Below, piece by piece: positions 10,548 through 26,294 of a DNA stretch of 37,362 bases. Source of the stretch: an uncultured Thermomicrobiaceae bacterium (GTDB lineage: Bacteria; Chloroflexota; Chloroflexia; Thermomicrobiales; Thermomicrobiaceae). A program made the translations under genes and the position numbers. Each line of letters opens with the position of its first letter. The first letter of the stretch is position 1. The stretch is from contig CALKCJ010000025.1 in NCBI GenBank assembly GCA_938082375.1, forward strand, positions 1 through 37,362. The letters are read 5' to 3'. The notes under the pieces were generated by a model that was not told the origin of the DNA, made no database searches, and saw only the letters and a program-made list of their open reading frames with translations.

Positions 10548-11691
10548 GACTTTCCTCCCGTTCCAGCGGCAGGGCGACCGAAGTCGGCACACGCTCGATG
10601 CTTAGGCGATACTCGGACAGAGCCTGGAAGGCGACCATCGTGATCATCAACACGCCGAGGAGGGCGTAGTCAATTCCGAACGTCAGTTGGAGCTTCCCCT
10701 GCATAAAGCGGGCGCCACTCGCCATGCCGCCGAAGAGCAGCGCGACCGGAATCGCGGCCAGCGGATGACTCCGCGCAATGAGGCCGGTGATAAGCCCATA
10801 GAAGCTGAAATCCCCGAAATCGCCGTAGCTCTTTGGGATCTTGTACACGCCCGGTACAGCGGCGAAATAGTGGTATCCGGCCAGCCCGGCCAGCATCCCG
10901 CCGAGGCCAAAGACGAGCGTACTGATGAAGAGTGTGTCGATCCCCGCATAGCGTGCCGCCGCCGGGCTGTGTCCCAACACCCGGATCTGGTATCCCAGCG
11001 TGGTCTTGGCGAGAAAGAATAGAAGGACGAGCGCCAGCAGCACGGCCCCGTAGGCAGTCAACGGCACGTTCAGTACCTGCGGCAACCGCACCGAGAGGGG
11101 CAGGCTGAACCCCTCACCCTCCGCCGTCCGCCCCATGAACGGGCCGCCTTCACGGATCATGTGCGCCACCAGCCACAGCATGATCCAGTTCATCATCATC
11201 GTCGTGACGATCTCGTTGACCTCGAACCGCCCGCGCAGGAAACCGGCTATGGCACCATAGAGACCCCCTCCGACCAGCGCGGCCAGGATCATGAGTGGAA
11301 TCACCAGCCAGCCCGGTAAGGCAGCGTTGATCCCCGCCTTCCCACCAAAGAGGTAGGCCACCGCGAACGCCGCCAGCGTCCCCGCGTAGACCTGTCCCGG
11401 CAGGCCGATGTTCCACAGCCCGGCGCGCAGCGGTACGATGAAGGCGAATGCGCACAGCAGGATGAAAACCGCTCGGTTGACGGTCTGAGGCAGCCCGAAC
11501 TGGCTCGCAAACGCGTAGCGCGCGATCTCGGCGTAGACCTGACGTGGGTCGGCTCCGGCCTGCAGAAAGGCGAACCCGAGCAGGAACAGCGACACGGCGA
11601 TCGCCAGTACCGACGCCAGGGAGGCGTGCCACCAGCGCGTCTCTCCCCGCTTCTCGATTCGCAGCCTGTAGCCAGCGACCTGTGTCCTCAT
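10525..11691 (-). CDS. BMP-type ABC importer permease, first subunit
   Basis: This is a membrane permease of 388 residues with about ten hydrophobic helices. It has the family segments PLRAGLWNIGLPGQVYAGTL, FEVNEIVTTMMMNWI and GHSPAAARYAGID, the last near the cytoplasmic coupling loop that contacts the ATPase. It is the YufP/NupP-like partner in BMP-type (nucleoside-family) importers. The ATG at 11691 overlaps the ATPase stop in an ATGA arrangement. The N-terminus is charged before the first helix, and the C-terminal tail is hydrophilic. The neighbours make a complete importer: lipoprotein, double ATPase and two permeases. Confidence 0.88.
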   Translation of the reverse strand: MRTQVAGYRLRIEKRGETRWWHASLASVLAIAVSLFLLGFAFLQAGADPRQVYAEIARYAFASQFGLPQTVNRAVFILLCAFAFIVPLRAGLWNIGLPGQVYAGTLAAFAVAYLFGGKAGINAALPGWLVIPLMILAALVGGGLYGAIAGFLRGRFEVNEIVTTMMMNWIMLWLVAHMIREGGPFMGRTAEGEGFSLPLSVRLPQVLNVPLTAYGAVLLALVLLFFLAKTTLGYQIRVLGHSPAAARYAGIDTLFISTLVFGLGGMLAGLAGYHYFAAVPGVYKIPKSYGDFGDFSFYGLITGLIARSHPLAAIPVALLFGGMASGARFMQGKLQLTFGIDYALLGVLMITMVAFQALSEYRLSIERVPTSVALPLEREESRVESPHH

Positions 11692-13223
11692 AGCCGCCCC
11701 CTACGCAGCCCGGCCATCAGCTCCCCGATCAGCTCCTTGCTCGCTTCGGCCGCGGGGACGATGCCGGTAAACTGCCCCTCATAGATGGCTGCGACCCGAT
11801 CGCTGAGCATCAGCACCTCGTCGAGATCCTCCGAGATCAGGATAATACCGGTACCGGCTCGTTTGGCCTCGAGCAACTTCCGGTGAATGAACTCGGCCGC
11901 GCCAACATCCAGCCCGTGTGTCGGCAAGGCAGCGATCAGCAGGCGCGGCCGGCGCGAGAGCACGCGAGCGACGATCACTTTCTGCAGGTTACCGCCCGAC
12001 AGCGAGCGCGCCGGCGCCTCTGGCCCAGCCGCGACCACGCTGTACTCGCGGAGCAACTGCCCGGCCAACGCCCGCGCCTCGCTCGCTGCCAGCACTCCCC
12101 GGCGGGAGAATGTTGGCTCGCTGTAGTAGTTCAACAGGACGTTGTCCACCAGCGAGAAATCAGGGATCGACCCCACATCGCGCCGCTCGGTCGGGATGTA
12201 TCCCAGTCCCAGCTTCCAGCGCTGGAGGACGGAGGCGCGCGTGATGTCGACACCAGCGAGGCGGATACGGCCGCGCTCCACCGGGCGCAGGCCTGCCAGT
12301 GCGTCGGCGAGAAGCTCCTGGCCGTTGCCAGCGACGCCAGCGATGCCGAGGATCTCTCCCGCCCGCACCTCGAAAGAGACTCCCTGTACGGCCAGCACCC
12401 CCCGGTCATCGCGTGCCCACAGGTCATCGACCGTGAGCACTGGCTCGCCGATGGGCACCTCGATCCGCTCCACGTGCAGCGTCACCTCGCGCCCGACCAT
12501 CGCGGCGGCCAGGCTCTGCTCGGTCGCCTGCTTCGTCTCCAGCTCGGCGACTACTCGCCCGCGCCGCAGGATCGTCACCCGGTCGCTGTGCTCCAGCACC
12601 ACCGGGAGCTTGTGCGTGATGAAGGGGATGACGGCCAGATCCTCACTGGCCATGGTGCGCAGCGACTGGAGAAGCCGCTCGACCTCGGGCGGCGACAGGA
12701 CGGAGGTCGGCTCGTCCATGATCAGCACGCGGGCACCGTGGTAGAGCGCCTTCAGGATCTCGACGATCTGCTTCTCCCCTTCAGAGAGCTGCCACACCTT
12801 GGCTTGGAGCGGCAGCCGGAACCCGTATCGCTCGCACAGCGCGGCAATTCTGCGCTCTGCCTGGCGGAGATCGAGCACGGTTCCAGTATCCGGGTGCCCC
12901 AAGATGATGTTCTCGACGACTGTGTGCGCGGGGATCAGCTTGCGCTCCTGGTGCACCATGCCGATCCCCAGCCGGATGGCGTCGCGGGGGCTGTGGAAGC
13001 GCACGCGCTGCCCGTGAAAGAAGATCTCCCCTTCGTCCGGCTGCAGCTCACCAAACAGGATCCGCATCAGCGTCGTCTTACCAGCCCCGTTCTCCCCCAG
13101 CACGGCGTGGATCTCCCCCGCGCGCAACTGGAGGTCGATACGGTCGTTAGCGACGACCTCGCCGAAGCGCTTGCTGATACCGCGTGCCTCGAGTACCACC
13201 TGGCCACGCTCGACGCTGTCCAT
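11688..13223 (-). CDS. BMP-type ABC importer ATPase (two nucleotide-binding domains)
   Basis: This protein of 511 residues contains tandem ABC ATPase domains. The first has Walker A GENGAGKTT, a signature-like LSEGEKQIVEILKAL and Walker B VLIMDEPTSVL, and looks catalytic. The second has a degenerate Walker A (GVAGNGQ), signature LSGGNLQKV and LLIAALPTHGLDVGA, where the acidic Walker B residues are replaced. That asymmetry is usual in the YufO/RbsA-like class. The ATG at 13223 follows GAGGAG and precedes the first recognisable domain by about 10 residues; the longer frame to 13376 runs through an intergenic hairpin and is not credible. The role is to energise uptake of the ligand delivered by the adjacent BMP lipoprotein. 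Confidence 0.92.
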   Translation of the reverse strand: MDSVERGQVVLEARGISKRFGEVVANDRIDLQLRAGEIHAVLGENGAGKTTLMRILFGELQPDEGEIFFHGQRVRFHSPRDAIRLGIGMVHQERKLIPAHTVVENIILGHPDTGTVLDLRQAERRIAALCERYGFRLPLQAKVWQLSEGEKQIVEILKALYHGARVLIMDEPTSVLSPPEVERLLQSLRTMASEDLAVIPFITHKLPVVLEHSDRVTILRRGRVVAELETKQATEQSLAAAMVGREVTLHVERIEVPIGEPVLTVDDLWARDDRGVLAVQGVSFEVRAGEILGIAGVAGNGQELLADALAGLRPVERGRIRLAGVDITRASVLQRWKLGLGYIPTERRDVGSIPDFSLVDNVLLNYYSEPTFSRRGVLAASEARALAGQLLREYSVVAAGPEAPARSLSGGNLQKVIVARVLSRRPRLLIAALPTHGLDVGAAEFIHRKLLEAKRAGTGIILISEDLDEVLMLSDRVAAIYEGQFTGIVPAAEASKELIGELMAGLRRGRL

Positions 13224-13256
13224 GGTCGCTCCTCGCGGCGGCCCGCGCCTGCCAGT

Positions 13257-13290
13257 GCGGGCAGGTGGTGGATTTCCACCACCTGCCCGC
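13257..13290 (-). promoter_or_regulatory. Strong intercistronic hairpin between BMP lipoprotein and ATPase genes
   Basis: A perfect 15-bp inverted repeat (13257-13271 with 13276-13290, loop ATTT) lies between the lipoprotein stop and the ATPase ribosome site. The arms read GCGGGCAGGTGGTGG and its complement. No T-run follows on the minus strand, so it is not a standard terminator. More likely it protects the 3' end of the upstream message or attenuates read-through, giving more binding protein than transporter. Confidence 0.7.
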
Positions 13291-13321
13291 TGCCCATCCC
13301 TCGCCCTCGCCCAGTTCCGAC

Positions 13322-14686
13322 CTATGGCAAGATCGTGACGCCGGCGAGGTCGAAGTTGAACTTCGTCAACAACCACTCGGTGGTCGGCGCCTCACCTGCC
13401 GGTTTGACCGTCGCGCCTTTCTCAGGGATCGGAGTATCGGGCAACGCGAGACCGGTGCCGTTGCTCACCAAGGCGTTCTCCGTGAACGGATCCCATTGGC
13501 CCTTGCTCATCTGCTCGCGCCGCTGCGCTACGAGGTCGACGATCTCCTTCGGAAGCTCTTCGCGTGCCTTGGGACTGATGGCATCGACGCCCACCTTCAG
13601 ATCGTTCATCAAGTCGACCGTCGATTCCTTGGTGCCATCGGCCAGCGTCATCGTCGACTCGAGCCCGAGGAAGAGCACCTGCTCCGGCTTCTCCCCCTTC
13701 ATCAGCGCCTGGATAATGCGGTCGTAGAGCACCTCCCAGCGCGTGTCGAAGGAGACGGCGACGGTGTTGGTATCGGCCCACTTGTAGAAGCCGACGATGT
13801 CCATGTCTTTACCGACGAACCAGATCCCCTTCGCCTTGCAGACGTCGAGCGTCGAGCCGGAATCGGTCTGCTGGGTCAGGATATCGCAGGAGTACTGGCT
13901 CGCCAGAGTCTCGGCAACCGCCCGCTCCTCGGCCGGGAGATACCAGTCACCCACGTACTTGATGTAGAGGTTCACGTCCTTGTTGAGCAGCTTCGCGCCT
14001 TCCTGGACACCGAGGATGAAGCCTGCCTGCCGGCGAAGCACCTGGATGTTCGGGAACGCCGAGACGATCCCGATGTTGCCGGTCTTCGTCAGCGCAGCGG
14101 CGATCAGGCCCTCCAGGTACAGCGCCTGGTACTGCCGCGGGAAGACGCGGATGAAGTTCTCGGTGTGCGTGAGGTCACTGGCAACGATCGAGACAAAGAT
14201 CTTGTCTGGATACTTGTCGGCGATGTCGAGCAGCGGCAGACCGATGAACTCGGCATTGCCGACGATGATATCCGCACCCTCTTTCGCGATCATCTCTTCG
14301 GCGAAGGGTACCGACTGGTCAGGCCCGACCTGCTCGCGGTAGATGTACTTGACGTTCGGGTACTTCTCCGCTAGGCGCTTGCCAGCCCGATCGTGGGCAC
14401 CAGACCAGGTCGTCCCTTCGATAACACTGAAGTGCAAGATGGCGAGCGTGATCTCCTTGCCAGCGGGCGTGGCCGCTGCTGCCGGCGTTGCCCCCGGGGC
14501 AGGTGTCGCGGCCGGCGCCGGAGACGCCGCGGGTGCTTGGGTCGGTGTCGCTTCCTGGCGCGCGCACCCGGCGAGCAACCCGCCGACCAGCGGCGTGGCA
14601 GCGCCAGCGGCCAGCAACCGAACCAGCGTGCGCCGGCTCAGGGTTCGGCCCAGCCATGCATTGTGCTGGGGTCTCTGCTCTGCCAT
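13322..14686 (-). CDS. BMP-family substrate-binding lipoprotein (Tat signal)
   Basis: This ABC importer binding protein of 454 residues belongs to the BMP/PnrA-like family, which captures nucleosides in characterised members. The N-terminus carries a twin-arginine motif (SRRTLVRLL) and lipobox LAGC, predicting folded export by Tat and lipid anchoring outside the membrane. An Ala/Pro/Thr-rich linker of about 40 residues follows. The mature domain shows the family segments GADIIVGNAEFIGLPLLDIA, FPRQYQALYLEGLIAAALTK and VGKDMDIVGF. The ATG follows a strong GGAGGAG site. It is the first gene of the importer operon and is separated from the ATPase gene by a stable hairpin. The ligand is inferred from family only. 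Confidence 0.92.
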   Translation of the reverse strand: MAEQRPQHNAWLGRTLSRRTLVRLLAAGAATPLVGGLLAGCARQEATPTQAPAASPAPAATPAPGATPAAAATPAGKEITLAILHFSVIEGTTWSGAHDRAGKRLAEKYPNVKYIYREQVGPDQSVPFAEEMIAKEGADIIVGNAEFIGLPLLDIADKYPDKIFVSIVASDLTHTENFIRVFPRQYQALYLEGLIAAALTKTGNIGIVSAFPNIQVLRRQAGFILGVQEGAKLLNKDVNLYIKYVGDWYLPAEERAVAETLASQYSCDILTQQTDSGSTLDVCKAKGIWFVGKDMDIVGFYKWADTNTVAVSFDTRWEVLYDRIIQALMKGEKPEQVLFLGLESTMTLADGTKESTVDLMNDLKVGVDAISPKAREELPKEIVDLVAQRREQMSKGQWDPFTENALVSNGTGLALPDTPIPEKGATVKPAGEAPTTEWLLTKFNFDLAGVTILP

Positions 14687-15192
14687 CGTTTCTCCTCCTC
14701 AGGCTGAAACACGGTCACCCACAGATCGCCGCCTCAGTTGGGGGCGGCGGCTTCGCCACTGAACAGACGCGCTCACCAGGCCGGCAGCCTCTCATACCTG
14801 ACTACCGCCGTTCGACCGCTGGCTTCCTCTCACCTGTTACCCCGAAGACGACACCTCCTTTGACAGCATCCCCACGGCTCAGTGGATGTTCGCGTCGGAT
14901 AGCAACGGCAAAGAGCAACCACGCTCCCAAGAAGCAACACACCGGCGCCCCCGTGCTGCTGCACAGGAGTATACGGAACTGCGCCAGATCTACACGACTG
15001 GCTCCAGACGGTGCCCCCAAGCCGCTGTTCCCCGGCAAGGGGGTTCAAAAAAAAGATGATCGGCCCCTGACCCGATCGAACCCGTTGCAGTGGGTCACCG
15101 GCCGCGCCTGGAAGCCCGCCAGGCAGTATAACGAGGGGCTCGTCATCGGTCAACTGGACCGATGCACACTCGACGCTCACCGCTGCTGTCGC
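14687..15192. other. Long non-coding region between divergent BMP-importer and pheST-his operons
   Basis: About 500 bp without a supportable gene. On the minus side it should hold the importer promoter; a TATACT hexamer (14973-14968) is the best -10, with a poor -35. A GCCGCC/GGCGGC hairpin lies at about 14730-14755 in the importer leader. A hairpin at 15014-15043 (outer CCCCC/GGGGG, inner GCCG/CGGC, symmetric AA/AA loop) is followed on the plus strand by an A-run, so it is not a normal terminator in either direction. A 78-codon minus-strand frame at 14802-15038 has no family resemblance and looks accidental. Confidence 0.5.
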
Positions 15193-15222
15193 TTGACATC
15201 GTCTCGCGCCGTCGCTTATGCT
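15193..15222 (+). promoter_or_regulatory. Sigma-70 type promoter of the pheST-hisZGD operon
   Basis: A consensus -35 TTGACA (15193-15198) is separated by 18 bp from TATGCT (15217-15222). The expected start of transcription is about 15229-15231, directly at the ATG of the short leader ORF at 15232. This is the strongest promoter-like sequence in the window. Confidence 0.75.
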
Positions 15223-15231
15223 GGTAGCGTT

Positions 15232-15336
15232 ATGGGCGCGAGACGTGGCCGGTACCAGTGCACGGTGTGCGTCAGCCACCACGTCCACTTTAGCCCGCCG
15301 GCGTTGCCGGTGGGGCGCGCGGTGCTGGCCTGGTAA
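15232..15336 (+). CDS. Putative leader peptide with His-His-Val-His-Phe cluster
   Basis: A 34-codon ORF (ATG to TAA) begins within about three bases of the predicted transcription start, so it would be translated from a leaderless message. Codons 16-20 are CAC CAC GTC CAC TTT (15277-15291), encoding HHVHF. The downstream operon makes phenylalanyl-tRNA synthetase and histidine-synthesis enzymes, the two amino acids over-represented here. A terminator-like hairpin starts 28 bases after the stop. The RNA around the cluster can pair in several ways: 15242-15248 with 15279-15285 (7 bp), 15295-15302 with 15306-15313 (8 bp), and 15302-15311 with 15351-15360 (10 bp with one G-U). This is the arrangement expected for an attenuator. 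It could instead be a chance ORF; no homology is claimed. Confidence 0.5.
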   Translation: MGARRGRYQCTVCVSHHVHFSPPALPVGRAVLAW

Positions 15337-15364
15337 GCGTGTAGCCCTCAACCGGCGACGTCGG

Positions 15365-15395
15365 CGAGCAGAGGTGCATGCCTCTGCTCGTTTGT
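15365..15395 (+). terminator. Terminator-like attenuator hairpin upstream of pheS
   Basis: A perfect 10-bp stem (CGAGCAGAGG at 15365-15374 with CCTCTGCTCG at 15381-15390, loop TGCATG) is followed at once by TTTGTTTG. It lies between the operon promoter and pheS, so any termination here would reduce expression of the whole operon. That is the classic position of an attenuator. Confidence 0.7.
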
Positions 15396-15450
15396 TTGCT
15401 CGATGGGCGTGCTCGGAGCCGGGACGAGACGGGGCAGGGAGGTGACGGTC

Positions 15451-16494
15451 TTGAGCGGTGCGGTCGAGCAGATCAGGCAGCAGGCGCTGGCCGAGCTCGA
15501 GCAGGCCAGCACGACAGCGGCGCTCGCCGAGTGGCACGGGCGCTACCTCGGGCGGCGCGGCGAGCTGACGCAGCTGATGCGCCGGATCAGCCAGGTACCG
15601 CCAGAGGAGCGCCCGGCCTACGGGCAGGCGGTCAACGCCCTCAAAGAGGAACTCACGGCCCGGTTCGAGCAGCGCGAGGCGGTGGTCAAGCGTAGGGAAC
15701 TCAGCCAGCGGCTCACAGCCGAGGCGGTCGACGTCACCCTGCCCGGCCGGCCCGCCGACGTGGGCGGGCTGCACCCGGTCACCCAGATGATCCGCGAGGT
15801 AACGACGATCTTCAACCACCTGGGCTTCCAGACGGTCGAGGGGCCGGAGGTGGAGTACGGCTACTACGCCTTCGACGCGCTCAACATCCCGCAGGATCAC
15901 CCGGCGCGCGATGTCTGGGATACGATCTTCATCGTCTCCGACCAGCAGGAGATCGTGCTGCGGCCGCACACGTCGCCCATGCAGATCCGCACTATGGAGC
16001 GACGCCAGCCACCGGTGCGCGTGGTGGTGCCGGGCCGCTGCTACCGCTTCGAGGCGGTGGACGCGACCCACGAGTGGCACTTCCACCAGATCGAGGGTCT
16101 GGCAGTCGACGAGCAGATCACGATGGCCGACCTCAAAGGCACGCTCGCCGAGTTCGCCCGCCAGCTCTTCGGCCACGAGCGCAAGGTGCGCTTCCGCTGC
16201 GACTACTTCCCGTTCGTCGAGCCAGGCGTCGACTTCGCGATCGACTGCATGTTCTGCCGCGGCGAGGGCTGCCGGGTCTGCAAAGGCACCGGGTGGATCG
16301 AGATCCTGGGGGCCGGTATGGTCCACCCGCAGGTGCTGCGCAACGTGGGCTACGATCCGGAGCGCTATACCGGCTGGGCCTTCGGCATGGGGGTCGAGCG
16401 GCTGGTGATGCTGAAGTACGGCGTGCCCGACATCCGGCTGTTCTACCAGGGCGACCTCCGCTTCCTGGCCCAGTTCAACCGGGCCCTCGCCTGA
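15451..16494 (+). CDS. pheS: Phenylalanyl-tRNA synthetase alpha subunit
   Basis: The 347-residue catalytic subunit of the (alpha-beta)2 enzyme charges tRNA-Phe. An N-terminal coiled-coil region (residues 1-90) for tRNA contact precedes a class II catalytic core. Visible motifs are GGLHPVTQMIREVTTIF, the motif 2 region with CYRFEAVDATHEWHFHQIEG, and motif 3 GWAFGMGVERLVMLKYGVPD. The cysteine cluster CMFCRGEGCRVC before the final motif is seen in many bacterial PheS proteins. The TTG start at 15451 is preferred because GGGAGGTGA lies 6-7 bases upstream. An ATG at 15403 in the same frame would add 16 poorly conserved residues. It is the first structural gene after the leader/attenuator. Confidence 0.97.
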   Translation: MSGAVEQIRQQALAELEQASTTAALAEWHGRYLGRRGELTQLMRRISQVPPEERPAYGQAVNALKEELTARFEQREAVVKRRELSQRLTAEAVDVTLPGRPADVGGLHPVTQMIREVTTIFNHLGFQTVEGPEVEYGYYAFDALNIPQDHPARDVWDTIFIVSDQQEIVLRPHTSPMQIRTMERRQPPVRVVVPGRCYRFEAVDATHEWHFHQIEGLAVDEQITMADLKGTLAEFARQLFGHERKVRFRCDYFPFVEPGVDFAIDCMFCRGEGCRVCKGTGWIEILGAGMVHPQVLRNVGYDPERYTGWAFGMGVERLVMLKYGVPDIRLFYQGDLRFLAQFNRALA

Positions 16495-16583: not shown

Positions 16584-19037
16584 ATGAAAGTACCGGTCAG
16601 GTGGCTCAAGGAGCTGGTTCCCACTGAGCTGAGCGCCCGCGAGATCGCCGAGCGGCTGACCCTGGCAGGACTGGAGGTCGAGGCCATTACCGAGATCGGC
16701 TCGACCTGGGACAACATCTATGTCGGCGTCGTCGAGCGCATCGAGCCGCACCCGAACGCCGATCGGCTGGTGCTCGCGACGGTGGACGCTGGCGCGCACC
16801 GGCTGACGGTGGTGACCGGCGCGCCCAACATCGCGCCAGGCCAGAAGGTGGCGCTCGCCCTGCCCGGCGCCACGCTCTACGATGGCCATAGCGTAGAGCC
16901 GAAGCTGATCACGCTCAAGCCCAGCACCATCCGCGGCGTCCGCTCCGAGGGCATGGTCTGCTCCGAGAAGGAACTGGGGCTCTCCGACGAGCACGAGGGG
17001 ATCATGGTGCTCCACGCCGACGCGCCGGTCGGGGTACCGCTACGGGAGTACCTCGGCGACCAGGTGCTGGAGCTGGAGATCACGCCGAACCTGGTGCACG
17101 CCTTCTCGGTCGTCGGGGTCGCGCGCGAGCTGGGCGCGCTGATCGGGCAGCGCGTGCGCTACCCGGAGCGCGCGCCGCTGTCGGTCGGCGGGCAGGAGGG
17201 CCTGGTGACGATCGAGGCGCCGGATCTCTGCTACCGGTTCGTCGGCGTGGTGATCGAGAGCGTGACCGTTGGCCCTTCACCCTGGTGGATGCAGCAGCGG
17301 CTGCAGGCCGCTGGCATGCGCCCGATCAACAACGTGGTAGACATCACGAACTACGTGATGCTGGAGTGGGGCCAGCCGCAGCACGCCTTCGACCGCGATC
17401 GGTTGCGCGAGGGGCGCATCGTCGTGCGCCGGGCGCGACCCGGCGAGACGCTGGAGACGCTCGATGGGGTGCGCCGCGAGCTGGATCCCGACACGCTGGT
17501 GATCGCCGACGCCGAGCGGCCGGTCGGCATCGCCGGGGTGATGGGTGGTCTGGAGAGTGAGATCACCGACGAGACGCGCACAGTGCTGCTCGAGACCGCG
17601 AACTTCGAGATGCGCAGCATCCGCCGCACGGCGCGGGCGCAGCGGCTGCGCACCGAGGCCTCGGCGCGTTTCGAGCGCGGCCTGGATCCCAACTTGGCCT
17701 GGGAGGGCGCTACCCGGGCCGTCGCCCTCTTCCGGCAGCTCATCCCCGGCTGTCACGTCACCGCGGTCATCGACATCTACCCGAACCCTCGGCTGCCTCG
17801 CCAGCTCTGCATGCCGCGGCGTGAGATCCCGCGCCTGCTCGGGGTCGACTTCTCCGACGAGGCGGTACTCGATGTCCTCGACCGGCTCGAGTTCCAGCCA
17901 GAGCTGCGCCAGGAAGACGGCCAGAAGCTGATCGTCGTGCAGGTGCCGACCTACCGGAGCGACGTCGCCATCGCAGCCGACCTGGTAGAGGAGGTGGCCC
18001 GGATCATCGGCTACCACGAGCTGCCGGAGATGCTGCCGCTCGGCCGCACGGTGCCGGTGGAGATCTCACCGGAACTCCGGTTAGTCCAGGCAGTCCAGGA
18101 CACGCTGGTCGCCGCCGGCCTGAGCGAGGTGATCACCTACCCGATGGTCGACGAGGCCGCGCTGCGCGCGCTGCTGCCCGGCGCTGCCACCTTTCCCGAC
18201 TCTTACGGGTTCTATCCGCGCCCGGAGCGCGAGCTGGTGCGCGCCCTCAACCCGATCCGCCCTGAGTGGGCCATCATGCGCCCATCACTGCTGCCGTCGC
18301 TGCTCCGCAACGCGGCAGAGAACCTGAAGTTCAACCGCGCGGTGGCGATCTTCGAGACCGGCAAGGTCTATCTCCCGCGCGGGCTGGACGAGCTACCTGA
18401 CGAGCGGCGCACGCTCGGCTGCCTGCTGGCCGGCGCTCGCCACCTGCGCGACCTCTACCACGAGGAGCGGCCGGTCGACTACTTCGACCTCAAGGGCGTG
18501 CTCGAGGCTCTGTTACCGCGGATCGGCATGCCCGACCCGCGCTTCCGGCCGCTCGCCCACCCCAGCCTGCACCCGGGCCGGGCTGCCGAGGTGCTGGTCA
18601 AGGGACAGCCGGTCGGCCTCCTCGGCGAGGTACATCCTGCAGTCGTCGAGGCGTTCGAGATCGATCCGGACATTCGCGTCGTCTTCGCCGAGATCGACCT
18701 GCAGCGGCTGCTGGAGCTCGGCCTGGAGCCGCCGCGGCTACGACCGATCTCGCGCTACCAGCCGATCGACCAGGATTTCGCGGTCGTGGTGGATGAGGCC
18801 ACGCCGGCCGCCGAGGTCGCCGACGCGATCATGGCCGGCGCCGGGGCCCTCGCCGTCTCCGTCCGGCTGTTCGATATCTACCGTGGGCCGGCCATCCCAG
18901 CGGGCAAGAAGAGCCTGGCCTTCCGCGTGACCTTCTCGGCGCCTGACCGCCCGCTCTCCGACGAGGAGCTGGCGCGCCTACGCGAGCGGATCGAGGGGCA
19001 CCTGCGGCGGCGGGTGAAGGGAGAGCTCCGCCGGTGA
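16584..19037 (+). CDS. pheT: Phenylalanyl-tRNA synthetase beta subunit
   Basis: The 817-residue beta subunit has the full bacterial domain set. It comprises the N-terminal MKVPVRWLKELVP and a tRNA-binding EMAP/OB-like domain (about 40-155, with VGVVERIEPHPNADRL), the B3/B4 editing region that clears Tyr-tRNA-Phe (about 210-390, including INNVVDITNYVMLEWGQPQHA), B5, the catalytic-like core (EVITYPMVDEAAL, NPIRPEWAIMRPSLLPSLL), and the C-terminal FDX-ACB anticodon-binding domain (about 720-817). It follows pheS by 89 bases and ends in a GTGA overlap with the next gene, so histidine-pathway genes continue on the same message. Confidence 0.97.
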   Translation: MKVPVRWLKELVPTELSAREIAERLTLAGLEVEAITEIGSTWDNIYVGVVERIEPHPNADRLVLATVDAGAHRLTVVTGAPNIAPGQKVALALPGATLYDGHSVEPKLITLKPSTIRGVRSEGMVCSEKELGLSDEHEGIMVLHADAPVGVPLREYLGDQVLELEITPNLVHAFSVVGVARELGALIGQRVRYPERAPLSVGGQEGLVTIEAPDLCYRFVGVVIESVTVGPSPWWMQQRLQAAGMRPINNVVDITNYVMLEWGQPQHAFDRDRLREGRIVVRRARPGETLETLDGVRRELDPDTLVIADAERPVGIAGVMGGLESEITDETRTVLLETANFEMRSIRRTARAQRLRTEASARFERGLDPNLAWEGATRAVALFRQLIPGCHVTAVIDIYPNPRLPRQLCMPRREIPRLLGVDFSDEAVLDVLDRLEFQPELRQEDGQKLIVVQVPTYRSDVAIAADLVEEVARIIGYHELPEMLPLGRTVPVEISPELRLVQAVQDTLVAAGLSEVITYPMVDEAALRALLPGAATFPDSYGFYPRPERELVRALNPIRPEWAIMRPSLLPSLLRNAAENLKFNRAVAIFETGKVYLPRGLDELPDERRTLGCLLAGARHLRDLYHEERPVDYFDLKGVLEALLPRIGMPDPRFRPLAHPSLHPGRAAEVLVKGQPVGLLGEVHPAVVEAFEIDPDIRVVFAEIDLQRLLELGLEPPRLRPISRYQPIDQDFAVVVDEATPAAEVADAIMAGAGALAVSVRLFDIYRGPAIPAGKKSLAFRVTFSAPDRPLSDEELARLRERIEGHLRRRVKGELRR

Positions 19038-20506
19038 CCGAGGTGCGCACCGTTTCATCCCAGCGGGAAACTGCCGCGCCGCTTGAGCGGCTGCGCGGCA
19101 TGCAGGACGTCGGCCCGGAAGCGTACCGCGCCCGGCGGCAGGTGCTCGACCGCCTGCTCGAGGTGCTGAGGCACCACGGCTACCGGCTCATCGAGACGCC
19201 GGTGCTTGAGCCGACCGAGCTGTTCCTGCGTAAGTCCGGGGCCGAACGCATCGCGCAGATGTACGCCGTCATGTACCGGAACCGCGAGATCGCGCTGCGC
19301 CCGGAGCACACTGCCTCCGTGCTTCGCTATTATGTCGAGTCTCTTCAGACCGAACCGTTGCCGCTGCGCCTCTCCTACGCCGGGCCGGTCTTCCGCTACG
19401 AGCGGCCGCAGGCTGGGCGCAGCCGGCAGTTCACCGAGGTCGGCTGTGAGCTGCTCGGCGCTCCCGGGCCGGCCGGCGATGCCGAAGTGATCCACCTGGC
19501 CGCTGAGGTGCTAGACGTGGTCGGGATCCGGCCGCGCATCGTGGTCGGCCACGTCGGCATCGTACTCGACTTCCTGAGCCGCCTTCCGCTGCGTCAGCGC
19601 GTGCGCGACTGGCTGCTCTGGAGCATGGAGCGCTTGCGCAAAGGCCAGGAGGTGGAGCTGGAGCCCGAGCTGGCCAGTCTCACTGGCAGCGAGCGGCTAG
19701 CCAACCTTTACCAGAAGCTGGGTGCGGCGCTGCGCGAGGTCTCCGGCACAGAGCTCGAGCGCTGGGTGCTGGCGATCCTGCAGGAGACCGGGGTGCAGGT
19801 AGCCGGCGGCTCACGCACCCCTGAGGAGATCGTGAGCGGTGTCCTGGCCAAGCTCACTCGCTCCCACGACACCGATGACCTCCGGCGGTCGTTCGCCTTC
19901 GTCCGCGACCTGGCCGCGATCCACGGCCCGCCGGACGAGGCGATCCCCGCGCTGCGGGCGCTCATCGAGCGGCACGGGCTGGATCCGTCGCCGATGACGC
20001 AACTAGAGAGCGTACTCGACCTGCTGGCCGCCTATGGCATCGAGCGCGACCGGATCGAGCTGAGCCCGGGGATGGCACGCGGGCTGCACTACTACACCGG
20101 CGTCCTCTTCGAGGTCTACGCCGCGGATCAGCCCTCGCTCCAACTCTGTGGCGGCGGGCGCTACGACGACCTGGCGCAAGTGTTCGGGGCGCGCGCGCCG
20201 CTGCCGGCCTGTGGCTTCTCCTGCGGACTAGAGCGGATCGCCGAGGCGGCGAGCCTGCCAGAACCGGCCGCGCCTGAAGTCACACTGGTCGCGCCGGCCG
20301 CACCGGAAGCGCTGGCGCGGGCGGCTGGGGTCGCCGAATCGCTGCGCGCGGCCGGCGAGGTCGTCGAGCTCGATGTCCGCAACCGCTCTGCTGGTGCCAA
20401 CCGGCGCTACGCCCGCCGTCGGGGCATCCACCGTCTCGTGCTGGTCTACCCGGACGGCCGGGTGCAGACCGAGACCATCAGTGGCAAGGGAAACGACCGT
20501 GAGTGA
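19034..20506 (+). CDS. hisZ: HisZ-like ATP phosphoribosyltransferase regulatory subunit (HisS paralogue)
   Basis: This class II synthetase-like protein of 490 residues is related to histidyl-tRNA synthetase. Motif 2 is visible as FRYERPQAGRSRQFTEVGCELLG, the histidine loop as ARGLHYYTGVLFEVY, and motif 3 as GGGRYDDLAQVFG with ACGFSCGLERI. GGRYDDL, the GHVGIV segment and position next to hisG favour HisZ, the regulatory partner of HisG. The retained Arg in RGLHYY, and a C-terminal anticodon-domain-like segment (about 415-485), are HisS-like. It is longer than typical HisZ (about 380-420 residues). It overlaps pheT and hisG. A tRNA-charging function cannot be excluded. The adjacent hisG is a long-form enzyme that would not normally need HisZ. 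Confidence 0.65.
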   Translation: MTEVRTVSSQRETAAPLERLRGMQDVGPEAYRARRQVLDRLLEVLRHHGYRLIETPVLEPTELFLRKSGAERIAQMYAVMYRNREIALRPEHTASVLRYYVESLQTEPLPLRLSYAGPVFRYERPQAGRSRQFTEVGCELLGAPGPAGDAEVIHLAAEVLDVVGIRPRIVVGHVGIVLDFLSRLPLRQRVRDWLLWSMERLRKGQEVELEPELASLTGSERLANLYQKLGAALREVSGTELERWVLAILQETGVQVAGGSRTPEEIVSGVLAKLTRSHDTDDLRRSFAFVRDLAAIHGPPDEAIPALRALIERHGLDPSPMTQLESVLDLLAAYGIERDRIELSPGMARGLHYYTGVLFEVYAADQPSLQLCGGGRYDDLAQVFGARAPLPACGFSCGLERIAEAASLPEPAAPEVTLVAPAAPEALARAAGVAESLRAAGEVVELDVRNRSAGANRRYARRRGIHRLVLVYPDGRVQTETISGKGNDRE

Positions 20507-21518
20507 GCCGTTGCGCCTCGCGATCTCGTCGAAGGGCTCCTACGAGGAAGCGACGATCCGCTTCCTCGAGTCAGCCGGTCTCGCTGTCTGGCGGCCCAAC
20601 CCGCGCCAGTACGTCGGCAGGATCAGCGGGCTATCGGACGTCGAGGTGCTGTTCCAGCGCACGGCTGACATCGTCCACAAGGTGGCCGACGGCAGCGCTG
20701 ACCTCGGCATCACCGGCTACGACCTGGTGGCCGAGCATGTGAGCGACGACCCGAACGTGATCGTCGTGATCGACGACCTGGGGTTTCGGCGCTGCGAGCT
20801 GGTGCTGGCCGTGCCCGAAGGCTGGCTGGATATCACCACGATTGCCGACCTGGCTGATCTCTCGATCGACTTCAAGCGCTCCGGCCGCTCGCTCCGCGTC
20901 GCCACCAAGTTCCCCAACCTGACACGCGACTTCCTGTACCGCCACGGAGTCAACTACTTCACCCTGGTCGACTCGCACGGCGCACTCGAGGTCGCGCCAG
21001 CGCTCGGGCACGCCGATATCATTGCCGACCTGACCGAGACCGGCGTGACATTGCGCGAGAACCGGCTGCGCGTCCTCGAGGGCGGGCTCATCCTGCGCGC
21101 CCAGGCCTGCCTGATCGCCTCGCGCCGGGGGCTGTGCGTTGCGCCGGACAAGCTGGAGCGCGCCCGAGCCATCGTCGAACTGGTCGAAGCCCGGCTGCGC
21201 ACCCGGCGCTACCGGGTGGTCACCGCCAACGTCCGGGGAGCCAGCGAGGAAGACGTCGCCCGCCACGTGACCGCGCAGGTCGCCACCGCTGGCGAGCGGG
21301 GGCCGACCATTGCCCGCGTCTACCCGAAGGCCGGCGACTCCAACGGTGGCTGGTACGAGGTCACCGTCATCGTACCTAGTGACCTGCTCCTGGCGGCGGT
21401 CGACCACCTGCGCCGAGCGGGCAGCAGCGGTATCACTGTCTCCTCGCCGGACTACGTGTTCGATAGCTGTTCAGAGGCGTTCGTGCGCCTGTGCGCTGCG
21501 CTCCAGGAGGAAGCATGA
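20499..21518 (+). CDS. hisG: ATP phosphoribosyltransferase, long form
   Basis: This enzyme makes the first committed step of histidine synthesis, ATP plus PRPP to phosphoribosyl-ATP. The catalytic domain (about 1-235) has the opening LRLAISSKGSYEEATIRFLE and the PRPP-site signature GHADIIADLTETGVTLREN. A C-terminal ACT-like regulatory domain (about 240-325, RRYRVVTANVRGASEEDVARHV onward) makes it a long-form HisG, the class feedback-inhibited by histidine through its own domain. At 339 residues it is longer than the usual 285-300. The GTG at 20499 overlaps the end of the HisZ-like gene by 8 bases. hisD follows with an ATGA overlap. Confidence 0.93.
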   Translation: MSEPLRLAISSKGSYEEATIRFLESAGLAVWRPNPRQYVGRISGLSDVEVLFQRTADIVHKVADGSADLGITGYDLVAEHVSDDPNVIVVIDDLGFRRCELVLAVPEGWLDITTIADLADLSIDFKRSGRSLRVATKFPNLTRDFLYRHGVNYFTLVDSHGALEVAPALGHADIIADLTETGVTLRENRLRVLEGGLILRAQACLIASRRGLCVAPDKLERARAIVELVEARLRTRRYRVVTANVRGASEEDVARHVTAQVATAGERGPTIARVYPKAGDSNGGWYEVTVIVPSDLLLAAVDHLRRAGSSGITVSSPDYVFDSCSEAFVRLCAALQEEA

Positions 21519-22870
21519 GCCAGGGGACACCCGTCCGCGTCTTCGACGACCTCGAGCAGGCGCGGGCCTTCCTGCTGCGCAGCCGGCGGCTCGAGCAGGT
21601 GGAGCTACCGCTGGCGGTGCGGCAGAAGGTGCGTGAGGTCTTCGGTGCCGACCTCACAGCGATGGAGGTCGTCCAGCGCATCGTCGACGACGTCCGGAGA
21701 GACGGCGACGCCGCGCTCCGCCGCTACAGCAAGACGATCGACGGCCTCGAGCTCGCCCGCTTCGCCGTCACAGAGGAGGAGTTCGCCCAGGCTCGGGCAC
21801 AGGTGCCGGAGGAGGTAAGGCAGGCGCTGGCGCTGACCCGCGACCGCATCGAGTCGTTCCACCGGCGCCAGCTTCGCCAGTCGTGGCTCCACTTCGAGCC
21901 GGCAGGTGGCTTCGGGCAGCTCGTCCGGCCACTAGAGCGGGTTGGCGTCTATGCCCCGGCCGGGCGCGCCCCGTACCCGTCGTCCCTCCTGATGTCGGCC
22001 GTCCCGGCGCGGGTGGCCGGCGTCGCGGAGATCGTCGCCTGCGCTCCACCTTCGCCGGACGGCAGCGTCTCGCCGGTGATCCTGGTCGCCGCCGAGCTGG
22101 CGGGAATCGATCAGGTGTTCAAAGTCGGCGGTGCCCAAGCGATCGCGGCCATGGCTTACGGCACCGAGAGCATCCCGCGCGTGGACAAGATCGTCGGCCC
22201 CGGCAACATCTTTGTCGTGCTGGCCAAGCGCCTGGTCTACGGCGATGTGGACATCGACCAGTTGCCCGGCCCTACCGAGACGCTGCTCATCGCCGACGCC
22301 AGCGCCGACCCTGCGCTCTGCGCCGCCGACATGCTGGCGCAGGCCGAGCACGACCCGCTGGCCAGCGCCGTCCTGCTGACCACCGACGCGAGGCTCGCCC
22401 GCGAGGTGGTCGCCCAGCTCGAGCGCCAGCTCGCCCGCCTCGAGCGGGCGAGCATCGCGGCCGAATCGCTAGCGACCAACGGCGCCATCGCCGTCGTGCC
22501 TGATCTGGACACTGCCTTCGAGCTCGCCAACGCCTACGCGCCCGAGCACCTCTGCCTGCTGATCGAGGATCCATGGGCTTCCCTCGACCGCGTGCAGCAC
22601 GCCGGTGGGGTCTTCGTCGGTGAGAGCTCGCCCGAAGTGATCGGCGACTACACGGCCGGCCCCAGCCACGTGATGCCGACCGGCCAGACGGCCCGCTTCT
22701 CCTCGCCCATCAACGTGGACACGTTCGTGAAGGTCATCAGCGTGGTGGCCGTGAATCCACAGGGGCTGGAGGCGCTCGGGCCGCCGGCCGCGACGCTGGC
22801 GCGCGCCGAGGGCCTCACCGCGCACGCGGCCGCCATCGAGCAGCGGCTGGAACGCCGCCGGCCGGCGTAG
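21515..22870 (+). CDS. hisD: Histidinol dehydrogenase
   Basis: The 451-residue Zn/NAD-dependent enzyme of the last two steps of histidine synthesis oxidises histidinol to histidine. Family signatures are VYAPAGRAPYPSSLLM, FKVGGAQAIAAMAYGTE, KIVGPGNIFV, IDQLPGPTETLLIAD (usually GPSE), LAQAEHDPLA, and NAYAPEHLCL with the catalytic Glu-His pair. The ATG at 21515 has GGAGGAAGC immediately upstream and overlaps the hisG stop. It is the last gene of the pheST-his run. Other his genes (hisB, C, A, F, H, I) are not in the window. Confidence 0.97.
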   Translation: MSQGTPVRVFDDLEQARAFLLRSRRLEQVELPLAVRQKVREVFGADLTAMEVVQRIVDDVRRDGDAALRRYSKTIDGLELARFAVTEEEFAQARAQVPEEVRQALALTRDRIESFHRRQLRQSWLHFEPAGGFGQLVRPLERVGVYAPAGRAPYPSSLLMSAVPARVAGVAEIVACAPPSPDGSVSPVILVAAELAGIDQVFKVGGAQAIAAMAYGTESIPRVDKIVGPGNIFVVLAKRLVYGDVDIDQLPGPTETLLIADASADPALCAADMLAQAEHDPLASAVLLTTDARLAREVVAQLERQLARLERASIAAESLATNGAIAVVPDLDTAFELANAYAPEHLCLLIEDPWASLDRVQHAGGVFVGESSPEVIGDYTAGPSHVMPTGQTARFSSPINVDTFVKVISVVAVNPQGLEALGPPAATLARAEGLTAHAAAIEQRLERRRPA

Positions 22871-23035
22871 GCCCGTCTCGCGCAGACAGAGGCCCGGATC
22901 CTGGTACCCGCCGTTCTTCACGATCATGAAGCAGATGGCCCTCTGGGGTATTCACGAAAGGCAAACGTGAACGCCCATACGCTGATCAGCTGCAGGAGCG
23001 CGCACCGGGAGCGAGGTCGCCGCTGCCAGGCGAGG
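22871..23035. other. Convergent intergenic region between hisD and ruvA
   Basis: The two genes end facing each other. A TTCACG/CGTGAA hairpin (about 22951-22971) and a longer imperfect pairing of CAGAGGCC (about 22887-22894) with GGCCCTCTG (about 22938-22946) are candidate transcript-end structures. Neither has a T-run, so no canonical terminator is called. Confidence 0.35.
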
Positions 23036-23620
23036 CTATCCGGTGCGGGCCAGCAGGCGCAGCGCGGCCAGCACCCGCTCCTCAAGCGTCGGAGCCTCAG
23101 CCAGGTTCACCCGTGCTGCGGCCTCGCGGGCCTCGGCCGCGGTGTAGCCGAGGGCCATCAGCGCCTCGATCACCTCGCGATCCGGGGTGACCCCGGCCCG
23201 CTCGCCGACCGGCGCCAGCGCCGGCAGCTTGCCACGCAGCTCCAGCACGATACGGCTAGCGGTTTTCCGCCCGATGCCTGGCGCCCGGCTGAGCCGCTCC
23301 ACGTCTTCGGCCGCGATCATCTGCCCCAGCTCGTCCGGCCGCGCGATCGAGAGCAGCGCGAGCGCGGCTCTCGGCCCCACGCCGCTCACCCCGATCAGCA
23401 GTTCGAAGAGCTCGAGCTCGGCGGCCGAAGCGAAGCCGTAGAGCGCTAGCTCGTCCTCCCGTACCCGCAGGTGCGTGACGAGCTCGACCTCTTCCCCCGG
23501 CTGGCCGAGGTCAGCCAGCGTGGTCTGCGAGGTGTAGACACGCAGGGTCAAGCCGTGCAGGTCGACGAGCACCGCGCCCGGCTGCTTGGCGACCAGCCGG
23601 CCCCGTATCCCCCGGATCAC
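23036..23620 (-). CDS. ruvA: Holliday junction branch migration protein RuvA
   Basis: The 194-residue RuvA protein binds four-way DNA junctions and loads the RuvB helicase during recombination and repair. The OB-fold N-terminus begins IRGIRGRLVAK. The helix-hairpin-helix region reads GVSGVGPRAALALL and APGIGRKTASRIVLELRGKL. The C-terminal RuvB-binding three-helix domain is ALMALGYTAAEAREAAARV onward. The GTG at 23620 is preceded by GGAGGCAGC and overlaps the upstream amidohydrolase stop (GTGA). No ruvB or ruvC is in view; ruvA here is the last gene of an operon headed by a phosphatase. Confidence 0.95.
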   Translation of the reverse strand: MIRGIRGRLVAKQPGAVLVDLHGLTLRVYTSQTTLADLGQPGEEVELVTHLRVREDELALYGFASAAELELFELLIGVSGVGPRAALALLSIARPDELGQMIAAEDVERLSRAPGIGRKTASRIVLELRGKLPALAPVGERAGVTPDREVIEALMALGYTAAEAREAAARVNLAEAPTLEERVLAALRLLARTG

Positions 23621-24486: not shown

Positions 24487-25385
24487 CCGCCGTAGCCAAG
24501 TGCCAGAATCACTGCCACGATAGCGATGAAGACCAGCAGGCCGAGCAGCACCAGCGCCACCATCAGCCGGTTCGGCCCCCCGGCCTCGACCGGTGCCGGT
24601 TCCTCCTCAGCGACCGGCTTCACCCAGGCGACGACGGCGGTGGCGTTGTCGTTCGTCTGGTGCGCGATCGCCAGCTCGACCAGCCGGCGAGCCGCCTCCT
24701 CCGGCGAGTGTGCCAGTACAGTCGTGGCGATCTCGGCCGCGCTCACGAAGTCGTGGACGCCGTCAGTCGTCAACACCAGACGGTCGTCACTCAGGAGCCG
24801 GAGCTCGAAGATATCCACGTCGACCCGATGCCGGTGCCCCAGTGCCCGGGTGATCACATTGCGGTACTGGCTCTCGCGAGCCTCCTCCTCGGACATCACT
24901 CCGGCGGCCACCTGCTCGGCGACTAGCGAGTGGTCGCGCGTGATCTGGGTCGCTCGCTTGGCGCGGATCAGGTAGGCACGGCTATCGCCGACGTTCGCGA
25001 CTGTCAGGTCGTACTCGCGGATGACGGCGGCGACGAGCGTGGTACCCATGAGGTGGTCTTCGCCCAGCGGCTGCCACTCGCTGTAGATACGCTCGTTGGC
25101 CTGGCGGATGGCCGTGCGCAGGCGCTGGGGGATCTCGGTCGGCTCCAGCGGGCTACTGTAGAAGACATCGCGCAGCGTCTCGATCGCGAGCTGCGCTGCC
25201 ACCTCGCCGCGCTGGTAGCCTCCCATCCCGTCGGCGACCGCCAGCAGCACGCCGTGGCTGCGCGCCAGCTCGCTCTGCGGATCGGTCAGGAGGACTGCAT
25301 CCTCGTTCTGCTCGCGGACAGGCCCCGGGTCGGTGGCAGCTCCGACCACCAGCACTGTCTCGCGCACGCGCTGTCGAACCGACAA
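24483..25385 (-). CDS. PP2C-family serine/threonine phosphatase with C-terminal membrane anchor
   Basis: The product of 300 residues is a metal-dependent protein phosphatase of the PPM/PP2C class. Metal-ligand motifs are DPGPVREQNEDAVLL, VADGMGGYQRGE, MGTTLVAAV, VANVGDSRAYLI, TTDGVHDFV and TNDNATAVVAW. Unlike soluble PrpC, it ends in a single hydrophobic helix (LMVALVLLGLLVFIAIVAVI) after a Pro/Glu linker, so the catalytic domain faces the cytoplasm from the membrane, similar in layout to PstP. The TTG at 25385 is chosen because GGAGGAGCGAGGGA precedes it; the frame upstream to 25541 covers the promoter region. It probably reverses Ser/Thr kinase signalling that the FHA proteins at 33.6-34.8 kb read. 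Confidence 0.92.
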   Translation of the reverse strand: MSVRQRVRETVLVVGAATDPGPVREQNEDAVLLTDPQSELARSHGVLLAVADGMGGYQRGEVAAQLAIETLRDVFYSSPLEPTEIPQRLRTAIRQANERIYSEWQPLGEDHLMGTTLVAAVIREYDLTVANVGDSRAYLIRAKRATQITRDHSLVAEQVAAGVMSEEEARESQYRNVITRALGHRHRVDVDIFELRLLSDDRLVLTTDGVHDFVSAAEIATTVLAHSPEEAARRLVELAIAHQTNDNATAVVAWVKPVAEEEPAPVEAGGPNRLMVALVLLGLLVFIAIVAVILALGYGG

Positions 25386-25433
25386 TCCCTCGCTCCTCCG
25401 GCCCCCACACGACCCCTCGCGACTCGTATGAGT

Positions 25434-25462
25434 AGTATGGAGCGTGAGGCGCAGAGCGACAA
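25434..25462 (-). promoter_or_regulatory. Probable promoter of the PP2C operon
   Basis: On the minus strand, TTGTCG (25462-25457) and CATACT (25439-25434) are spaced by 17 bp, about 50 bases ahead of the PP2C start. Confidence 0.4.
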
Positions 25463-25508
25463 CCGAGCCCCTGGGCGCCAGCCGATACTCGCCGCTAGCG
25501 AGCGGCCG

Positions 25509-25525
25509 TATAATGCCGGTACAAT
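25509..25525 (+). promoter_or_regulatory. Probable -10 elements of the lipoprotein-MFS operon
   Basis: A perfect TATAAT (25509-25514) and a second TACAAT (25520-25525) lie just before the lipoprotein gene. No good -35 is seen. Confidence 0.4.
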
Positions 25526-25553
25526 CGGCCGGCCGATGCAAGGATCACGCTCG

Positions 25554-26294
25554 ATGCCCGCTCACACGCAAGCCGCTCCCAGACCTCGCCGTGGTGTCCG
25601 AGTGCCGAGCTCGTCGTCCGTGTTTCTGCTCGCGCTGCTCGTGCTTCTGGTACCAGGTTGCCGAGGAGACGAGGTCGAACCTCCTGTCGACCCGTCTGAC
25701 CTCGTGAGCACCGCGGCCGACCGGCTCGACCAGGTCAAGACGTTCCACTTCGTGCTGACCCACGAGAGCGGGGGAACACCGCTCTTACAGACCATGCTCC
25801 TGACTCGGGCCGAGGGGGACATGGCTCGGCCGGGCCAGATGAAGGCGCAGCTCGCCGTGGAGGCGGTCGGAGCCGCGCTGCAGCTCCAGTTCATCGGTAT
25901 TGGCGACGAGGCCTGGCTCAGCAACCCGTTCGATCCGACGCAGTGGCAGGCCCTGCCCGATGTCGCGGCGCATGACGTCCTCAACCTGGAGGCGCTCCCC
26001 CACGTGCTGCGCCAGCTCAAGAACCCGAGCCTGGTCGGCGAGGAGCGTCTCGCCGGAGTGGCAAGTTATCACGTCCAGGGCAAGCTGGACTCGGCCGAGC
26101 TGGCGACGCTCGTACCGAGCGGTGCCGAGCCCGGGCTGGAAGTCACAGTTGACCTCTGGATCGGCAAGGACGACTCGCTCGTACGTCGGGTCGTTGTCAG
26201 CGGCGCGCTCACCTTCAAGGAACCGACGACTATGAAGCGCACAATCGAACTCTCCGACTTCGACGCTCCGGTGACGATCATGCCGCCTCAGTGA
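25554..26294 (+). CDS. LppX/LprG-family lipoprotein
   Basis: The 246-residue secreted lipoprotein has an Arg-rich N-terminus, a hydrophobic stretch (FLLALLVLLVPGC) and lipobox Cys36. The mature part follows the LppX_LprAFG pattern: about 190 residues of alternating strands with ADRLDQVKTFHFVLTHESGG at the start, EAWLSNPFDPTQWQALPD in the middle and LEVTVDLWIGKDDSLVRRVVVSGAL near the end. In mycobacteria this fold binds lipids such as triacylglycerides in a hydrophobic cavity. The ATG at 25554 has AAGGA about 9 bases upstream; an ATG at 25536 is an alternative. The stop overlaps the MFS gene (GTGA), the same pairing as mycobacterial LprG and P55. Confidence 0.8.
   Translation: MPAHTQAAPRPRRGVRVPSSSSVFLLALLVLLVPGCRGDEVEPPVDPSDLVSTAADRLDQVKTFHFVLTHESGGTPLLQTMLLTRAEGDMARPGQMKAQLAVEAVGAALQLQFIGIGDEAWLSNPFDPTQWQALPDVAAHDVLNLEALPHVLRQLKNPSLVGEERLAGVASYHVQGKLDSAELATLVPSGAEPGLEVTVDLWIGKDDSLVRRVVVSGALTFKEPTTMKRTIELSDFDAPVTIMPPQ

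Follow-up and report, generated by a model that had tools for sequence, protein, structure and literature searches.

A candidate histidine-codon attenuator upstream of pheST-hisZGD in Thermalbibacter and its place in a family of leaders with exchanged codons

Known attenuators and the pheS leader

The classical attenuators of the enterobacterial his (hisL) and pheST (pheM) operons combine codons of a leader peptide with competing hairpins and an intrinsic terminator. A comparable arrangement, in which the leader peptide has codons for the amino acid under regulation, hairpins compete and a terminator comes before the first gene, precedes pheS in an uncultured Thermomicrobiaceae bacterium within the window analysed here (the whole stretch of 37,362 nucleotides, forward strand of contig CALKCJ010000025.1, assembly GCA_938082375.1). 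However, this Thermalbibacter leader differs from hisL and pheM in its putative leaderless start, in the joint presence of His and Phe codons, and in a long stem that abuts or slightly overlaps a terminator arm instead of sharing it in full, and a sequence relation to either is not evident. Among other described systems, thrL responds to both Thr and Ile (PMC9291695) and resembles the candidate dual pheS leader in that one leader would serve more than one amino acid, although Thr and Ile belong to one pathway whereas the biosynthesis of His is separate from that of Phe. Leaderless polycysteine short-ORF attenuators have been described in mycobacteria (Canestrari et al. 2020, cited in PMC9031893) and, as far as the citing article describes them, resemble the putatively leaderless pheS leader in their leaderless short ORF, in which codons for the sensed amino acid follow one another. 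The cys leaders of mycobacteria are without a conserved terminator hairpin (PMC1262725), unlike the pheS leader, which has an intrinsic terminator. His attenuators with a His-rich leader peptide, an attenuator hairpin and a terminator hairpin have been recognized in Firmicutes by comparative genomics (PMC9413887), but these belong to a different phylum, have different structures, serve His only and precede his operons and not pheST-his. The Phe T-box of related Thermomicrobia occupies the same place, serves the same target gene and likewise controls transcription by amino-acid supply; however, it reads uncharged tRNA directly, without a leader peptide (RF00230). The first-pass annotation had regarded a single leader that reads both His and Phe, possibly without a 5' UTR, as new. 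Since thrL (PMC9291695) and the mycobacterial polycysteine attenuators, in the account given in PMC9031893, precede it, neither property is new alone, and the new part is the combination, together with the re-coding and the exchange for a T-box. No description of leader-peptide attenuators in Thermomicrobia was found in the openly accessible literature searched.

The operon, its promoter and the leader reading frame

The regulated genes lie on the plus strand as pheS (15451-16494, with a probable TTG start after GGGAGG), pheT (16584-19037), hisZ (19034-20506), hisG (20421-21518, start approximate) and hisD (21491-22870), and this order bears out the original description of an operon for Phe-tRNA synthetase and histidine biosynthesis. 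The hisS-like gene is read as hisZ because a better hisS match is located on another contig of the genome (C20), and pheST-hisZGD is read as one operon because pheT and hisZ overlap by 4 nt. On the 3' side of hisD, a 160-aa ORF (22967-23449) has no Pfam or NCBIfam match, and weak homologues of it also follow hisD in several relatives. Elsewhere in the window, a gene for an LppX/LprAFG-type lipoprotein overlaps a DHA2 MFS efflux gene (24930-27874), which recalls the mycobacterial lprG-P55 pair, and ABC transporter genes on the minus strand (11688-14686) code for a PnrA-type binding protein and for an ATPase that most resembles putative B6 transporter models.

A sigma-70-type promoter is present on the plus strand at 15193-15222, where the -35 box TTGACA (15193-15198) and the -10 box TATGCT (15217-15222) are separated by an 18-bp spacer, as first noted; a promoter scan returned two promoter-like sites against 0.2 expected in shuffles. 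Just 5' of it are a promoter-like site in the opposite direction (15125-15153, minus strand) and, nearby, a terminator-like minus-strand hairpin (15077-15058). The leader ORF on the plus strand (15232-15336), likewise found as annotated, comprises 34 codons from ATG 15232 to TAA 15334-15336, encodes MGARRGRYQCTVCVSHHVHFSPPALPVGRAVLAW, is kept in the four Thermalbibacter genomes and has relatives in the order that are recovered by a covariance model. Because the reading frame remains open further 5' without a stop (as a longer ORF, 14488-15336), the placement of the start at ATG 15232 is a probable one, which draws upon the promoter and the conservation. Only 9 nt separate the -10 box from this ATG, and the distance is 6-10 nt in the leaders of Thermalbibacter and Thermomicrobium and in most aromatic leaders across the order. 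From this spacing, the 5' UTR is expected to be absent or a few nucleotides long, in agreement with the leaderless or near-leaderless start proposed at the outset, and a promoter of the form TTGACA-17/18-TAnnnT precedes the aromatic leaders of Thermalbibacter, Thermomicrobium and most of the order, a like promoter being found 5' of nearly all homologous aromatic leaders. Going by most of the aromatic leaders, a leaderless start would thus be a trait of the attenuator family. The spacing is nevertheless not universal in the family, as the -10 box and the ATG are further apart (18 and 25 nt) in the leaders of the second genus, G125, and the short -10-to-ATG pattern is not seen in the asd leaders.

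Codons 16-20 of the leader (15277-15291, plus strand) read His-His-Val-His-Phe, as the first reading had it, and this HHVHF run is unchanged in all four Thermalbibacter genomes, with FHHH at the corresponding place in G125. Given the amino-acid usage of the operon itself, the probability of at least three His in any five codons of such an ORF is about 0.0013, and that of at least three His with a Phe in the same five-codon window is about 0.0001.

Structure of the leader RNA and its homologues

The fold of 15232-15391 has z = -4.4, and none of 200 shuffles folded as well; what weighs most for a genuine leader is that relatives have kept it. A plus-strand intrinsic terminator (15365-15398), conserved in all homologous leaders compared, begins 28 nt past the leader stop codon and is made up of a perfect 10-bp stem, CGAGCAGAGG/CCTCTGCTCG (15365-15374/15381-15390), and the T-rich tail TTTGTTTG, exactly where the hairpin had been described. 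All three upstream pairings that accompanied that description exist, but the one at 15302-15311/15351-15360 extends to a helix of 15 bp, 15297-15311/15351-15365, which forms the long conserved stem. The 5' arm of this stem (15297-15311), a putative antiterminator, lies inside the leader ORF over the codons for PPALPV, and its 3' arm (15351-15365) runs into the base of the terminator. The local hairpin at 15295-15313, CCGCCGGC-GTT-GCCGGTGG, takes up bases that the long stem needs as well, so that the two compete, and a similar local pairing can be read in homologous leaders. The 5' hairpin GACGTGG/CCACGTC (15242-15248/15279-15285) would cover the His codons if no ribosome were present.

The covarying stems that were to be sought across relatives were found for the long stem and not for the 5' hairpin, which occurs only in Thermalbibacter and has no compensatory changes. 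Compensatory pairs in the long stem were seen in an alignment of 14 leaders, and as aligning all leaders on sequence alone put the 3' arm out of place in several rows, co-variation was assessed by swapping arms: among 41 lineage representatives, arms paired with their own partners scored 12.06, as opposed to 8.68 +/- 0.29 when swapped between lineages, and the score of the true pairs was matched in 0 of 20000 permutations. In most leaders of Thermalbibacter, Thermomicrobium and the G125 genus, the long stem and the terminator core have 2-6 nt in common. For most asd leaders this overlap measures 5-6 nt, and in the majority of the other leaders the two elements abut (0-3 nt). Because the overlap is of a few nucleotides or the two merely abut, equilibrium folding favours the terminator at every ribosome position, with a gain of about 6-18 kcal/mol, and in these folds the long stem and the terminator can coexist. 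Neither a conserved 2:3 pairing of the classical type, between a region-2 arm and the terminator, nor a conserved upstream segment complementary to the terminator arms was found when looked for.

A search of the genome with the leader DNA revealed a second copy, 82% identical over 111 nt, which precedes DAHP synthase. It encodes MEAMAARHQYWFAYYFSPPALLVGREVLSG, and its codons include those of all three aromatic amino acids. This aromatic leader is present in Thermalbibacter, Thermomicrobium and the G125 genus, and DAHP-synthase leaders occur across most of the order. A covariance model built from the leaders of these three genera and run on 158 genomes of the class matched 54, which is an upper figure because several weak matches, with E near 0.001-0.01 and from families f6, f8 and in part f9, seem not to be related. 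Two collection hits outside Thermomicrobia (L098, L102), followed by no terminator, were discounted as chance. In the stronger matches, aromatic runs such as YEYQDWYYFYFTPPALLVG, SYWWFYFYFTPPASLVG and WFAYYF precede DAHP synthase, and Thr runs precede asd (aspartate-semialdehyde dehydrogenase), while the long stem, from the end of the leader ORF to the terminator base, is common to the aromatic, Thr and pheS leaders. The present genome has, outside the window, a third leader of like structure (L136, C15:86797-86937), with the Thr run MVTTTPPAG, before asd, and its relatives have longer Thr or Ile/Thr runs. That the codons match the downstream gene in each set of leaders is the strongest argument that the leader codons would be regulatory.

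Upstream of pheS, the leader is found in all four Thermalbibacter genomes, and in G125 a strongly diverged leader, MLGTYRYVQFHHHRWPALPV..., with the run Phe-His-His-His and a terminator of the same kind, precedes the same operon; the short ORF with His and Phe codons that a comparison of pheS upstream regions was expected to reveal is thus present in both genera. The converse finding, the same operon without the ORF, was made in Thermomicrobium and not in Thermalbibacter or G125, and counts in part against the proposal, as the first-pass annotation had named it as a refuting outcome: the pheS upstream regions of Thermomicrobium have pheST-hisZGD with a promoter, but without leader, terminator or T-box. 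A T-box with a conserved TTC (UUC) specifier-like triplet is located 5' of pheS in g3, in g4 and in three further families of the order. The matches to RF00230 have E values between 5e-15 and 6e-6 but fall short of the Rfam gathering score, and these T-boxes would therefore be overlooked by routine annotation; those at L044 and L046-L062 scored below the gathering threshold where tested. Neither RF00230 nor the AGGGTGGTACCGCG motif was matched in the window, and a reading of the pheS leader as a T-box was rejected for want of an RF00230 match; the search that matched nine related pheS loci likewise returned no T-box in the pheS upstream regions L034, L038, L039 and L042. An Rfam search of the window returned no known family, and weak microRNA matches were attributed to chance.

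In a tree of the five operon proteins, Thermalbibacter, Thermomicrobium and the G125 genus form a clade with support 1.0, within which the pairing of Thermomicrobium with the G125 genus is without resolution. As the T-box is present outside this clade and absent inside it, the leader stands where a T-box was, and pheS is a regulated gene in the order. The leader most likely arose in the ancestor of the clade or within the clade, replacing a Phe T-box, to judge from these distributions. It may derive from a copy of the aromatic leader, an origin which the shared SPPAL tail and terminator would favour, and Thermomicrobium may have lost it since.

Proposed mechanism and its alternatives

These observations are most readily accommodated by a model in which ribosome-mediated attenuation of a leaderless or nearly leaderless transcript probably controls pheST-hisZGD, with histidine as the amino acid sensed and the device a re-coded member of the attenuator family that precedes DAHP synthase (aromatic) and asd (Thr). 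In this model, a 70S ribosome would load at the 5'-terminal ATG and trail RNA polymerase. When charged His-tRNA, and possibly also Phe-tRNA, is ample, the ribosome would pass HHVHF and reach the stop codon, where it would sit between the arms of the long stem; the local hairpin at 15295-15313 could then fold behind it, the terminator at 15365-15390 would form, and most transcripts would end before pheS. Should the ribosome instead stall at the first His codons, its front edge would lie at about 15290-15293, assuming a standard footprint, which would leave 15297-15311 free to pair with 15351-15365. The long stem may thereby capture or block the base of the terminator and let the polymerase continue into pheS-pheT-hisZ-hisG-hisD. 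It is possible that the helix and an abutting terminator hairpin do not fit together in the exit channel of RNA polymerase; alternatively, the order of folding could decide between them.

The first-pass annotation had proposed a dual His/Phe attenuator. The attenuator, and histidine as the amino acid that it would sense, are well supported by the conservation of HHVHF, by FHHH in G125 and by homologues whose codons match their genes, while sensing of Phe is plausible but unproven; we would give dual sensing somewhat less than an even chance. Close to an even chance, by comparison, attaches to an attenuator for histidine only, in which the Phe codon would be a relic of the aromatic leader or would be kept for pairing, as with CUUU the long stem could reach into the terminator arm, while the pheST genes would be carried along. 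The single Phe codon of Thermalbibacter aligns with the F of the F-S-P-P tail in the DAHP-synthase leader, and the five aromatic residues of the WFAYYF run in the aromatic leader are cut to one here. Its position also looks poor for freeing the 5' arm of the long stem, as stalling at codon 20 would bring the ribosome to about 15302, over part of that arm. However, both genera have a Phe codon beside the His run, and that of the G125 genus (FHHH) occupies a different and well-placed position; further, the operon contains pheST, which is controlled by a Phe T-box in relatives. A fuller reading, in which one leaderless leader integrates His and Phe for an operon of aminoacyl-tRNA synthetase and biosynthetic genes, arose as a re-coded aromatic cassette, replaced a Phe T-box and blocks the terminator by abutting its base without sharing an arm, can be advanced only tentatively and is, as a whole, rather unlikely.

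The long stem could also be a pause or spacing element, with the terminator a constitutive brake and the leader peptide serving to couple translation to transcription, as the coexistence of stem and terminator in equilibrium folds would allow. We consider this improbable, since the stem co-varies and, in almost every leader where a long stem is clear, lies no more than a few nucleotides from the base of the terminator, a spacing kept although the terminator sequences changed, and since the exchange of regulatory codons implies an amino-acid signal. That the His codons have no regulatory role and result only from RNA pairing (CAC with GTG) is suggested by the pairing of CCACGTC with the upstream GACGTGG in Thermalbibacter and of CACCACCGC with the downstream GCGGTGGTG in G125. 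However, the partner is thus upstream in one genus and downstream in the other, yet the His run is common to both, and the codons of homologous leaders before other genes suit those genes, which makes this explanation very unlikely. Short ORFs and GC-rich hairpins are common in a GC-rich genome, but a chance ORF beside an ordinary terminator is contradicted by the conservation, the co-variation and the gene-matched codons across the order, and its likelihood is negligible.

The attenuator proposed for pheST-hisZGD would thus belong to a family that keeps its RNA core but changes the codons used for sensing (aromatic, Thr, His/Phe), and a leader-peptide attenuator would take the position that a T-box has before this gene in relatives. 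The probable leaderlessness opens the loading of ribosomes on such leaders to study in Thermomicrobia, and the geometry of stem and terminator poses the testable question of whether a stable helix that merely abuts a terminator can disable termination.
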